Positions 50,810-54,466 of a stretch of DNA of 64,000 bases are shown piece by piece; within the stretch, counting starts at the first letter, position 1; each line of letters starts with the position of its first letter. The position numbers and the translations under genes were made by a program. The notes under the pieces are model-generated. The model did not search any database. It was not told the origin of the DNA and saw only the letters and a list, made by a program, of their open reading frames with translations. Origin of the DNA: Psychroflexus maritimus (lineage in GTDB: Bacteria > Bacteroidota > Bacteroidia > Flavobacteriales > Flavobacteriaceae); assembly GCF_011089875.1 (NCBI RefSeq), contig NZ_JAANAS010000032.1, positions 1 through 64,000 of the forward strand. Direction: 5' to 3'.

Positions 50810-53800
50810 ATGCAAATATTTCAAAAATCTGTAATTCAAAAACACGTCAATAATCTTGATAAAGAGAAAGTTGATAAAGCTTTCGATATATTTCAGGAGA
50901 ATTATAATCAAGCGAAAATTGAGCAAATAAAAACGCTGAAAGAAGAAGAATATCAAGATGGATTTTTTAGAGACATTTTTGTTGATGTTTTAGGTTACAC
51001 ACTTCGACCAGATGAAAACTTTAATTTACAGCGTGAATATAAAAACCAATCTGATGGAAAAAAAGCGGATGGAGCGATTCTAAAAGATGAAAATGCAATT
51101 GCAGTTATTGAGTTAAAATCAACCAAAACAAAGGATTTAACTAAAATCACTCAACAAGCTTTTAACTATAAAAACAATCAACCAGATTGTAAATTCATTA
51201 TTACTTCAAACTTTCAAAAACTTCGATTTTACATTGATTATTCTAACGAATACGAAGAGTTTGATTTGTTTGCAATGGAACGTGAAAAATTCAATCTGTT
51301 GTATTTAATACTTCACAAAGACAGTATTTTTAAGGGTTTACCAATTCAACTTAAAAAAGAAACTCAATTTCATGAGAAAGAAGTTTCAGAAGAACTTTAT
51401 AAAGACTATTCAAATTTTAAAAGCAAACTTTTTGACAACCTAATCTTAAATCATCCAGAAGAAGATAAGTTGTTGCTTTTCAAAAAATCTCAAAAACTTT
51501 TAGACCGTTTTTTATTCATTCTTTTTGCAGAAGATAGCGGATTGCTACCGCCAAATTCAATTCCAAGAATGATAAAGCGTTATGAAATTTTAAAGGAAGA
51601 AGACGCTTATAAACCAATTTACGAGATTTTTAAACAGTATTTTGGTTATATGAATATTGGCAGAAAAGGTAAAAAGGAAACTGACGATATTCCAGCTTAT
51701 AATGGTGGTTTATTCTACGAAGACAAAACATTAAACGACTTTAAAATTGATGATGAAGTTTTAATAGATGATTTAAAAAAGCTTTCAACATACGATTTTA
51801 ATTCTGAAGTGGATGTCAATATTTTAGGACAGATTTTTGAACATTCACTTAACGAAATAGAAGAAGTTACAGCAGAAATTGAAGGCATAATTTCTGACCA
51901 AAAACGCAGCAAACGAAAAAAAGACGGTGTTTTTTACACACCGAAATATATCACCACTTACATAGTTACTAACACCATAGGAAAACTTTGTATTGATAAG
52001 AAAAAAGAACTTGATATTGAAGAAATTGAATTTGACAATACATTTTTAAAAGCTGATAAATCCTTAAGCGTAAAAGGTGGAAAACTTTATAAGAAATTAA
52101 CTACTTATAAAACTTGGCTAACCGAGTTAAAAATAATTGATCCAGCATGTGGAAGTGGTGCATTTTTAAATCAAGCTTTAAATTTCCTTATCGAAGAACA
52201 TGAAAAAATAGATGATATTATTGCAGAGCTAACAAACTCAACTTTTCGTCTCTTTGATACAGATAAAAACATTCTAGAAAACAATCTTTTTGGAGTAGAT
52301 ATAAATGAAGAAAGTGTTGAAATTGCTCAGCTTTCACTTTGGTTAAGAACAGCAAAAAAAGATCGCAAACTTTCTAAATTAAACAATAATATAAAATGCG
52401 GGAATTCACTTTTACAGTCTGATTTTGATTGGTATAAAAAATTTCCACAGGTTTTTAAAGAAAAAAACAAAAAACTATATCATATTACAACAGCAATTCA
52501 CGATAGTCGAACCTCCAAAAGGATGATAGACTATAAAGTGCGACAAAAAAGAGAAATGGGTACAAACCCATACCCGAACATCATTTATTTCACAAAAGAA
52601 GAAGATTTAATCATTACAGAGACTATTGCAGATATTGTAAATAAAGACCATTTAAAACTTGTGGCATTTAATATCTGCGCCGATCATATGCATCTATTAA
52701 TCGCTTGTGATATAAATGAAGTCGCATCCATCATGCAAAAAATAAAATCTATCACTGCAAAGCGTGTAAATGATGCAAGGTACTTTACAAGGGGTCATGA
52801 ACCCTTGCAGAAAAGTCATGACCCCTTGCATAATAAAGAAAAAAATCGCAAACCTGTATGGCAGCAAAAATACAGTGCTCCTAAAGAAATAAAGAGTGAA
52901 GAACAATTACAAAACACAATTACCTACATACAAAACAACAGAACTAAACATCAATTACCACAACACGATGAGAAGATAGAACATATCATAGACAAAATGT
53001 GTTGTTCTATTGATGAAGCTCTTGAGCCTGAATTTACAGGCGGTTTTGACGTGGTTATTGGAAATCCGCCATACATAAAAGAATATACCAATAAACAAGC
53101 TTTTGATGGTTTACGGGATTTACCTTCCTACCAAGGTAAAATGGATTTATGGTATATGTTTGGTGATTTAGCGTTAGACATTGTGAAAAAAGATTATGGT
53201 TTGATTGGCTACATTGCGCCAAATAATTGGATTACCAATGATGGCGCATCAAAGTTTAGAAATATTGTACTTAACAAAGGTAAGATTACTGAATTTATAG
53301 ATTTTGGAGATTTTAAAGTGTTTGATTCGGCAGGAATTCAGACAATGATTTACATAATGCAACGCTCTGATAATAATAAAAACTACAATTTTAATTTCTC
53401 GAAAGTAATTGACAGCAAAATAAAACACGAAGATGCGCAATTGTTTTTAGAGAAAGTTGCTGATGACAAATACGAATATTTTAATTCTAACATCATCAAA
53501 GAAGAATTGATAAACCAACCAATTACTTTTATAAATGCAGAACTCAATTTGATAATTGAGAAAATAAAGAATAAAGAAAATTTCAATTTAGAATCTAAAG
53601 AAATTGCTTCAGGTATTGACTTATTGCAAGATTTCGTTAATAAGAAACATAAAGAGGTACTTGAAAATGTAGAAGTTGGAGACGGTATTTTTAATTTAAG
53701 CCAGTCGGAATATGATAATTTGAATCTTTCCATAAATGAAAAAGATTTAATAAAACCATTTTATACCACGAGCGAATTACAACAATACTATGGTAATCCA

Positions 53801-54466
53801 AAAAATAGGCTTTGGATTATTTACACAGATTCAAGCTTTAAGGACGAAGAAAAAATACTTCCCTTTCCAAATATTAAAGGACATTTAGATAAGTTCTTGG
53901 ACGTATTTACTTCTGTTAACAAACCCTACGGTTTGCACCGTTCAAGAGACGAAAAGTATTTTAAAGGAGAAAAGATTTTTTCATTAAGAAAGTGTTCAGT
54001 TCGCCCAAGATTTACATATACCAATTTTGACGCATACGTCAACAGAACTTTTATGGTGATTAAAACCGACAGAATTAACCAAAAATATTTGACGGGAATT
54101 TTAAACTCAAATTTGATAGCATTTTGGTTAAAGTATAAAGGAAAAATGCAAGGCAACAATTACCAAATTGATAAAACACCTTTAGAAAATTTACCTTTAA
54201 TAAATCCGAATAAAGAAGTTCAAGAAAAAATTACCGATTTAGTTTCAAGTATTATTTCAAACACTCAAAAAAGTTCAGATTATCAAGAATTGTTAGACAA
54301 AGCAAAAAAGGATAACAATTTTGACAGAGAAATACAATTAACAAAAGAATTGGAGCAATTTTCAAAAGATATAAAACAAGCCGAAAGTAAAATCAATTCA
54401 ATCATCTTTGAACTTTACGAATTAAATCCAACTGAGATTTCAACGATTGAGAAAAATATTAACTGA
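50810..54466 (+). CDS. Type IIG restriction-modification enzyme with inserted RAYT-like (HUH) domain
   Basis: A 1218-residue single-chain restriction enzyme and adenine methyltransferase. Residues ~1-190 carry a PD-(D/E)xK nuclease site (Asp87, Glu101-Leu-Lys103 in AVIELKST). The helical region to ~370 precedes methyltransferase motif I DPACGSGAF (~444). Motif IV NPPY is at 752-755, with TaqI/Eco57I-type target recognition towards the C-terminus. Between FPQVFKEKNKK (~550) and FTGGFDVVIGNPPY an extra ~190 residues resemble a REP-associated tyrosine transposase: LYHITTAIHDSR (~556), the HUH motif His626-Met-His628 in ADHMHLLIA, and Tyr706 in TYIQNNR. No separate specificity or restriction gene is present. 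Recognition sequence unknown. Confidence 0.85.
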   Translation: MQIFQKSVIQKHVNNLDKEKVDKAFDIFQENYNQAKIEQIKTLKEEEYQDGFFRDIFVDVLGYTLRPDENFNLQREYKNQSDGKKADGAILKDENAIAVIELKSTKTKDLTKITQQAFNYKNNQPDCKFIITSNFQKLRFYIDYSNEYEEFDLFAMEREKFNLLYLILHKDSIFKGLPIQLKKETQFHEKEVSEELYKDYSNFKSKLFDNLILNHPEEDKLLLFKKSQKLLDRFLFILFAEDSGLLPPNSIPRMIKRYEILKEEDAYKPIYEIFKQYFGYMNIGRKGKKETDDIPAYNGGLFYEDKTLNDFKIDDEVLIDDLKKLSTYDFNSEVDVNILGQIFEHSLNEIEEVTAEIEGIISDQKRSKRKKDGVFYTPKYITTYIVTNTIGKLCIDKKKELDIEEIEFDNTFLKADKSLSVKGGKLYKKLTTYKTWLTELKIIDPACGSGAFLNQALNFLIEEHEKIDDIIAELTNSTFRLFDTDKNILENNLFGVDINEESVEIAQLSLWLRTAKKDRKLSKLNNNIKCGNSLLQSDFDWYKKFPQVFKEKNKKLYHITTAIHDSRTSKRMIDYKVRQKREMGTNPYPNIIYFTKEEDLIITETIADIVNKDHLKLVAFNICADHMHLLIACDINEVASIMQKIKSITAKRVNDARYFTRGHEPLQKSHDPLHNKEKNRKPVWQQKYSAPKEIKSEEQLQNTITYIQNNRTKHQLPQHDEKIEHIIDKMCCSIDEALEPEFTGGFDVVIGNPPYIKEYTNKQAFDGLRDLPSYQGKMDLWYMFGDLALDIVKKDYGLIGYIAPNNWITNDGASKFRNIVLNKGKITEFIDFGDFKVFDSAGIQTMIYIMQRSDNNKNYNFNFSKVIDSKIKHEDAQLFLEKVADDKYEYFNSNIIKEELINQPITFINAELNLIIEKIKNKENFNLESKEIASGIDLLQDFVNKKHKEVLENVEVGDGIFNLSQSEYDNLNLSINEKDLIKPFYTTSELQQYYGNPKNRLWIIYTDSSFKDEEKILPFPNIKGHLDKFLDVFTSVNKPYGLHRSRDEKYFKGEKIFSLRKCSVRPRFTYTNFDAYVNRTFMVIKTDRINQKYLTGILNSNLIAFWLKYKGKMQGNNYQIDKTPLENLPLINPNKEVQEKITDLVSSIISNTQKSSDYQELLDKAKKDNNFDREIQLTKELEQFSKDIKQAESKINSIIFELYELNPTEISTIEKNIN
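52788..52828. repeat. Perfect 13-bp inverted repeat inside the RAYT-like coding segment
   Basis: CAAGGGGTCATGA (52788-52800) and TCATGACCCCTTG (52816-52828) are exact reverse complements around a 15-nt spacer. The first arm also forms its own near-palindrome with CCCTTG at 52802-52807. It is translated as RGHEPLQKSHDPLH, a small in-frame repeat. Confidence 0.9.

Follow-up and report, generated by a model that had tools for sequence, protein, structure and literature searches.

A predicted REP-transposase-type HUH domain inside a Type IIG restriction enzyme and its link with in-frame palindromes

Introduction

TnpA-REP proteins, also called RAYTs (REP-associated tyrosine transposases, REP standing for repetitive extragenic palindrome), are stand-alone proteins with subclass medians of 148-325 aa (Quentin et al. 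2018, PMC6006769; here and below we draw on parts of that paper). N119 of the E. coli protein is a metal ligand and, in subclass 2.4, REPs are inserted in frame between HuH (the His-hydrophobic-His, or HUH, motif) and the catalytic Y. Unexpectedly long TnpA-Y1 proteins were set aside in the same work as fusions or annotation errors. The function of RAYTs and the reason for their retention by their hosts are unsettled. Here we describe a RAYT-like domain built, at one site, into an enzyme whose function is known: a Type IIG restriction enzyme-methyltransferase of 1218 residues encoded in a stretch of 64,000 nucleotides from Psychroflexus maritimus (contig NZ_JAANAS010000032.1, positions 1 to 64,000; hereafter the window).

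This locus shares with subclass 2.4, which is common in Bacteroidetes, an HUH motif, a conserved Trp, a Tyr with an Asn four residues on, a variable HUH-Tyr linker, and palindromes in the HUH-Tyr region that leave the frame unbroken (PMC6006769, in part). It differs from RAYTs in that the domain lies in an enzyme of ~1200 aa and in that NH[IFV]H, YIxNNP and GT[AG]G REPs are replaced by DHxH, Y-x3-NR and palindromes without GT[AG]G. The TnpA proteins of the IS200/IS605 family (IS608, ISDra2) have a similar fold (Z 10.8-11.5 with our predicted model) and likewise an HUH motif with a single Tyr, but carry Gln four residues after the Tyr, according to the same parts of PMC6006769, where the present domain has Asn; they work on hairpins at the ends of the element, whereas no fixed ends were found here. 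Outside residues 551-742 the architecture is that of Type IIG enzymes of the Eco57I/MmeI/BpuSI kind (PADLOC group PDLC03609); unlike the window enzyme, the Type IIG relatives compared that are without this segment have no HUH domain. Palindromic elements in frame within coding sequences have been described as Rickettsia elements and intragenic REPs (PMC3733652, the parts consulted); those lie in various genes, whereas the ones described here are tied to genes with a REP-type nuclease domain. Our literature search, which covered mostly titles and the openings of abstracts, found no report of an HUH domain within a restriction enzyme; a mention in a full text is possible.

A Y1 HUH domain interrupts the methyltransferase part of the enzyme

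The open reading frame 50810-54466 (+) has 1218 codons and no interruption. It matches the PADLOC model REase_MTase_IIG PDLC03609 with E 5e-195, model positions 1-554 of 1066 corresponding to residues 1-550, and Pfam finds Eco57I, N6_Mtase, TaqI_C and MmeI_hel in it. The nuclease, methyltransferase and specificity parts all lie in one chain, the nuclease part being recognized only by its motif and by an HSDR_N_2 match at residues 56-147 (21.8 bits, under the cut-off of 25). The features of the gene are as follows.

50810..54466, + strand: gene of the 1218-aa Type IIG restriction enzyme-methyltransferase, with the HUH domain inside it (PADLOC REase_MTase_IIG PDLC03609, Pfam)
51062..51118, + strand: KADGAILKDENAIAVIELK, residues 85-103, which we take to be the PD-(D/E)xK nuclease motif; putative, from its position and the sub-cut-off HSDR_N_2 match
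52139..52159, + strand: methyltransferase motif I DPACGSG, residues 444-450 (N6_Mtase and MmeI_Mtase matches)
52460..53035, + strand: inserted HUH (Y1) domain, residues 551-742 (missing in relatives; Y1_Tnp; predicted fold)
52475..52525, + strand: conserved first block LYHITTAIHDSRTSKRM, residues 556-572 (H, H, S, R, S and R invariant in the 11 rows of alignment A1)
52685..52693, + strand: HUH motif H626-M-H628, in DHMH (sequence)
52788..52828, + strand: inverted repeat of the HUH-Tyr linker, arms 52788-52800 and 52816-52828
52856..52876, + strand: VWQQKYS block with W684, which by motif order probably corresponds to the W conserved in TnpA-REP (PMC6006769, in part)
52925..52951, + strand: candidate nucleophile Y706 and candidate metal ligand N710, in YIQNNRTKH (sequence)
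53054..53074, + strand: methyltransferase motif IV VIGNPPY, residues 749-755 (sequence)
53936..54199, + strand: TaqI_C specificity domain match, residues 1043-1130 (Pfam E 3.9e-12)

A sequence-only reading of this gene had placed motif I, motif IV, an HUH motif and a candidate Tyr in one continuous frame, and all four are found there, at residues 444-450, 749-755, 626/628 and 706; it had noticed neither the palindromes nor the existence of a family. By motif position, N710 would be the counterpart of N119 of E. coli TnpA-REP (PMC6006769, in part).

Within the full enzyme, Pfam Y1_Tnp matches residues 594-709 (E 1.3e-8; 35.4 bits against a curated cut-off of 23) and NCBIfam REP_Tyr_transpos matches residues 601-718 (E 2e-12, yet under its cut-off of 80 bits). 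When the insert was searched alone, the same two families again ranked first in Pfam and NCBIfam, respectively. A search of Protein Data Bank (PDB) chains with the single sequence gave weak IS200 matches (E 0.1-0.9), ranked under an unrelated bacterioferritin (0.038); with an 11-row profile, IS200/IS605 transposases were matched at 1e-5 to 3e-3 and TnpA-REP at 0.14. We modelled the insert with AlphaFold2, using the window sequence and eight relatives (alignment A2). The model has a mean predicted local distance difference test score (pLDDT) of 79.8, 94 of its 207 residues scoring at least 90, and the top 30 Foldseek rows obtained with it are all Y1 HUH transposases, of the IS200/IS605 or TnpA-REP kind. 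In VIA-align comparisons the predicted model scored Z 11.5 both with IS608 TnpA (6fi8) and with hairpin-bound TnpA-REP (4er8; 120 residues, root-mean-square deviation 2.5), the best unrelated row reaching 7.7. A model of residues 19-1218 (pLDDT 82.5, predicted template-modelling score 0.65) sets the HUH domain between the IKCGNS strand and the motif IV strand, and its remainder matches CamA, PglX, MmeI, BpuSI and DrdV. By profile matches and predicted structure, residues ~551-742 of this Type IIG enzyme are confirmed as a Y1 HUH domain.

That the segment is an ordinary variable linker was considered and ruled out, since it has its own predicted fold and since the spacing from GNSL to GFD is short in domain-free relatives. 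Where the pattern could be matched, which excludes many distant rows, this spacing is 18 or 25 residues with five exceptions: L056 and L059 (95), L089 (34), and the distant L075 and L085 (136). In L056 and L059 this site of the enzyme is occupied by a different insert, of ~70 residues.

Several scans together yielded 23 enzymes with an HUH domain at this site. A scan of public genomes found the domain there in 8 of 79 loci; in the window's family (299 genomes, 46 with a match) it was present in at least five, among the 30 loci fetched and with the window's own included; and six of 395 genomes in a survey of the phylum, again counting the window's own, had it in a long frame. The named domain-bearing records are labelled Bacteroidota, save L055 (Chlorobiota), and the unnamed records were drawn mostly from the window's phylum. 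No relatives of the insert were found in phage, plasmid or viral sequences at the limits used. Some of the genes are incomplete: L182 represents the 5' half of a gene whose frame is broken, L178 is without its 3' part in frame, and several genes from metagenome-assembled genomes are cut by contig ends. The HxH, as DHxH, is kept in all 23 enzymes, and the Tyr with Asn at +4 in all 21 rows reaching that far; the residue after this Asn is R in 20 of these rows and H in one, and never the Pro of Y-x3-NP. The ratio of nonsynonymous to synonymous substitution (dN/dS) for the insert was 0.06-0.19 in seven of eight pairs and saturated in the eighth. These values are rough, synonymous sites being near saturation in several pairs, and suggest that the insert is under purifying selection. 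Were the domain a dead passenger, that is, an inert, tolerated leftover with palindromes that are neutral or mere mRNA hairpins, one could readily understand that the host enzyme is also found fully formed without it. The low dN/dS and the fact that H, H, Y and N are lost in no row reaching them make this explanation very improbable.

In-frame palindromes accompany the domain

In the window gene, the linker between HUH and Tyr contains perfect arms of 13 nt, 15 nt apart (52788-52828), and only one of 300 synonymous shuffles reaches 13. Under our final criterion (perfect palindromes, arms of at least 9 nt, loop of at most 4), palindromes were present in 21 of the 23 domain-bearing genes (39 sites over 75.7 kb) and in three of 42 domain-free relatives (4 sites in 128 kb; Fisher p 7e-12). 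The 42 include some identical or near copies; distant domain-free rows (e.g. L026, L027, L029, L065-L093, L095-L116), whose N-terminal parts align poorly, were left out. In ten tree-independent pairs, a mean of 7.0 agree, 0.1 oppose and 2.9 tie (median p 0.016, range 0.016-0.070). The two domain-bearing genes without a qualifying palindrome are L053, which is cut by a contig end, and the window gene. Under an earlier criterion (arms of at least 8, loops of 2-12) 18 inserts, 9.7 kb in all, contained 16 palindromes, where 200 synonymous shuffles gave a mean of 0.6 and a maximum of 4; the host parts had 10 in 49.9 kb, and 89 domain-free genes, which include distant rows dropped from the 42, had 11 in 290 kb. 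This link between an HUH domain and in-frame GC-rich palindromes in Type IIG genes is new.

Within the 23 domain-bearing genes, 25 of the 39 sites lie in the insert and 14 elsewhere in the gene; 10 of 18 rows have an in-frame palindrome in the HuH-Y interval. Of the 43 palindromes found by the final criterion, 31 have a stem with GGGG or GGAG, and the common form is CAAGGGG-N6-CCCCTTG, in which N6 is usually symmetric and differs between genes. The palindromes are translated in two frames, and in a third in L062. Since two or more frames are used, it is apparently the DNA rather than the peptide that is kept, and a peptide motif (KGxxPL, RGxxPL) was ruled out on this ground. One genome (G684) carries two domain-bearing Type IIG genes, L055 and L184, with different palindromes.

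We also searched whole genomes for these sequences. In 17 domain-bearing genomes, CAAGGRG-N2-8-CYCCTTG had 25 matches, against one for a reversed control. Sixteen lie inside the domain-bearing gene, one of them in the 3' half of the frame-broken gene; two lie downstream, one at most 70 nt from a stop codon and the other ~1.2 kb past the frame without its 3' part; and the remaining seven lie elsewhere in the genomes. Across 199 genomes of the family, the pattern had 29 matches in 25 genomes, three of them known to be domain-bearing, and the reversed control 16. A second sequence, GACGGGTTAACCCGTC, falls in the domain-bearing gene at three of three places in genome G698 and at two of three in G679; in G681 and G683, where it is dispersed, the ten copies that we inspected are all outside long frames. 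The idea that palindromes are private to the domain-bearing gene was partly wrong, given the seven matches elsewhere and the dispersal of GACGGGTTAACCCGTC in two genomes (G681, G683). We also rejected the idea that the palindromes are repeats spread through the window's genome: AAGGGG-N2-12-CCCCTT had one match elsewhere there, and its reversed control four. By their sequence and distribution the palindromes appear to be REP-like, at times genome-wide. At L261, a Y1 locus is surrounded by several palindromes of the AATCCTCCAGATTT kind, as in a REPtron.

Closely similar enzymes differ in the presence of the domain

Eight loci (L009, L010, L041-L046; six distinct sequences) are 84-85 % identical to the window enzyme over residues 1-550 and resume at 743-744 without the domain; L009/L045 and L010/L044 are identical rows in the host tree. 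As judged from this alignment, residues ~551-742 are an insertion relative to close relatives. Pairs with and without the domain are alike in both halves, with N/C identities of 86/95, 86/78, 83/79 and 79/84 %. The first of these involves L042, the closest relative by its C-terminal half, which is domain-free and shares 86 % (N) and 95 % (C) identity with the window enzyme. By this comparison the HUH domain is not needed for the specificity of the enzyme, because an enzyme with a C-terminal half 95 % identical is domain-free; a part in target scanning, one of the roles put forward in the sequence-only reading, is disfavored for the same reason.

In a host tree built by a quick method from residues 20-545 of 64 rows, presence and absence of the domain need 14 changes, at least 10 of them on well-supported branches; this number says nothing on gain versus loss. 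The inserts themselves were placed in a tree of 76 Y1 sequences, from which the short L053 and L182 and six solo rows with poor matches were excluded. In it, the 21 Type IIG inserts need two changes relative to the rest, and supported branches force one, with L181 unplaced. The Type IIG inserts look like one lineage in this tree, and one capture followed by exchange would be the simplest reading.

Identity profiles across the insertion site bear on the route of exchange. The window gene and L042, compared in blocks of 90 nt, are 73-87 % identical upstream, 77-86 % over the first 180 nt past the insert and 97-100 % beyond. L053 and L054 are 88-98 % identical upstream, a figure that falls to 78 % over the final 90 nt ahead of the insert, while L186 and L031 stay at 93 % as far as the insert edge. 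Precise transposition of the domain was at first favored, on the window/L042 comparison, and was demoted to second place by the recombination tracts seen in some of these profiles. In a self-mobile element, the domain and its hairpin ends would jump as single-stranded DNA, in the manner of IS200/IS605 elements, with one site of Type IIG genes as the target. The single insertion site, the many apparent gains and losses, the hairpins in or near the insert and the high upstream identity of L186 and L031 right to the insert are all in keeping with such an element. However, we found neither fixed hairpin ends nor a consistently clean insertion: the palindromes are scattered rather than at fixed insert ends, and the flank changes with the insert in L053/L054, though not upstream in L186/L031. 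A recombination tract is favored over a clean jump because the identity of L053 and L054 drops just before the insert. The profiles suggest that the domain is exchanged among Type IIG genes by recombination, which fits the data at least as well as the self-mobilization proposed in the sequence-only reading, and we regard a self-mobile element as improbable.

The same mosaic structure could mean that the HUH domain is a diversifier, nicking the palindromes of its own gene and so stimulating recombination that swaps Type IIG recognition domains. Domain-bearing genes are indeed mosaic, and in the window/L042 pair identity changes from ~80 % to 97-100 % at ~180 nt past the insert. Against this, domain-free genes are part of the same mosaic family, and the breakpoint is near the conserved motif IV sequence, where ordinary recombination is also expected; we hold this role to be unlikely, if a little less so than self-mobility.

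A probable captured REP-processing nuclease

We consider it probable, at roughly 0.6, that the domain is a captured single-strand nuclease of the TnpA-REP (RAYT) type, intact by sequence, which would act on its own palindromes and be dispensable to the host enzyme. Because stand-alone TnpA-REP of subclass 2.4 also has in-frame REPs between HuH and Tyr, the domain resembles a REP-processing nuclease that has been captured. The kinship to REP-associated transposases that had been read from the letters stands, and it fits better than one to IS200 elements, given Asn rather than Gln four residues after the Tyr and the in-frame palindromes. The analysis shows the domain, its fold, the conserved residues, the patchy presence and the link with palindromes; from these we infer nuclease activity, the palindromes as its substrate, dispensability in the cell and any benefit.

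In the proposed mechanism, a separate nuclease domain would have been set into a complete Type IIG enzyme, just ahead of the motif IV strand. H626, H628 and N710 would hold a metal ion, and Y706 would cut a single strand at the foot of a hairpin and be able to rejoin it. The probable substrates are the REP-like palindromes in frame in the domain's own gene, chiefly within the stretch that encodes the domain, together with intergenic ones in some genomes; CAAGGGGTCATGACCCCTTG is a candidate single-stranded palindrome substrate. Palindromes would thereby spread, and would last in loops in which they leave the frame open. The domain itself would travel with recombining restriction genes, passed on by recombination across the conserved flanks.

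Several observations weigh against a nuclease acting on its own palindromes. The palindrome criteria were tightened once examples had been seen, and the window's own palindrome is imperfect and fails the stricter one. After the Asn of Y-x3-N stands R or H, where TnpA-REP has P, and none of the 43 palindromes within genes has the GT[AG]G foot that marks class 2 REPs, the flanking DNA not having been searched for other REP types. Three domain-free genes (L051, L059, L060) have palindromes, and only one of the three genomes has a known domain-bearing gene. This is the genome of L051, where the palindrome lies at residue 98, in a stretch 21 nt longer than that of relatives, and the domain-bearing gene has an identical one; the L059 and L060 genomes gave no insert match. 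In domain-bearing genomes, GACGGGTTAACCCGTC can be dispersed (10 copies in G681, 8 in G683), and in the 10-copy genome the known domain-bearing gene has a different palindrome. Finally, other Y1 genes are present in four of four genomes checked, and another Y1 nuclease of the same genomes may move some of the palindromes.

The domain and its accompanying palindromes suggest that a selfish or regulatory DNA module rides inside an anti-phage enzyme, and the case shows that restriction enzymes can carry a second DNA-processing domain. The domain is present or absent in otherwise matching enzymes and its candidate substrates lie in the same gene, so that cleanly controlled tests can be designed.

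A second capture in HmaB

Another defence methyltransferase carries a Y1 domain. In genome G339 (G339:C1; L223, 438-4301, - strand), a 1288-aa HmaB (DUF1156) defence methyltransferase (PADLOC 1041 bits), adjoined by an HmaA helicase gene, has a Y1_Tnp match at 308-385, between DPFAGGG and TDPPY, which we take to be its motifs I and IV. In the tree of 76 Y1 sequences its HUH part clusters with stand-alone RAYTs, apart from the Type IIG inserts, which makes it a second, independent capture; such captures have occurred at least twice in defence methyltransferases. The gene has five in-frame repeats of 39 nt, 82-100 % alike, which also speaks for the captured-nuclease reading. A Meiothermus plasmid carries an HmaB relative, a gene of 957 codons whose match falls into two pieces, with 78 % covered. 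On a Candidatus Chlorohelix plasmid (L243, 2782-6379), a stand-alone transposase gene lies directly before a DUF1156 methyltransferase gene.

A working defence part, nicking single-stranded or hairpin DNA of phages and plasmids as a second nuclease, would account for the intact catalytic residues, the purifying selection and the fact that the second capture is also within an anti-phage methyltransferase. Enzymes alike in both halves are nonetheless without the domain, its presence changes 14 times on the host tree, and a phage-directed role leaves the concentration of palindromes in the domain's own gene unexplained. We judge a defence role unlikely, although it is the least unlikely of the four alternatives. 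More tentatively than the captured nuclease itself, we propose a wider picture: an active HUH nuclease inside anti-phage methyltransferases (Type IIG and, separately, HmaB) may seed hairpins in its host and in sister frames and spread with the exchange of recognition domains, as the equivalent, within a protein, of a REPtron or homing element.

Two further genes came to light. One (G000:C63:1768-3426) is a further Type IIG gene of the same group in the window's genome, with 56 % identity to residues 1-549. At L224 (1190-2707), a frame of 506 aa combines Y1_Tnp, helix-turn-helix and SelR (methionine sulfoxide reductase) domains.

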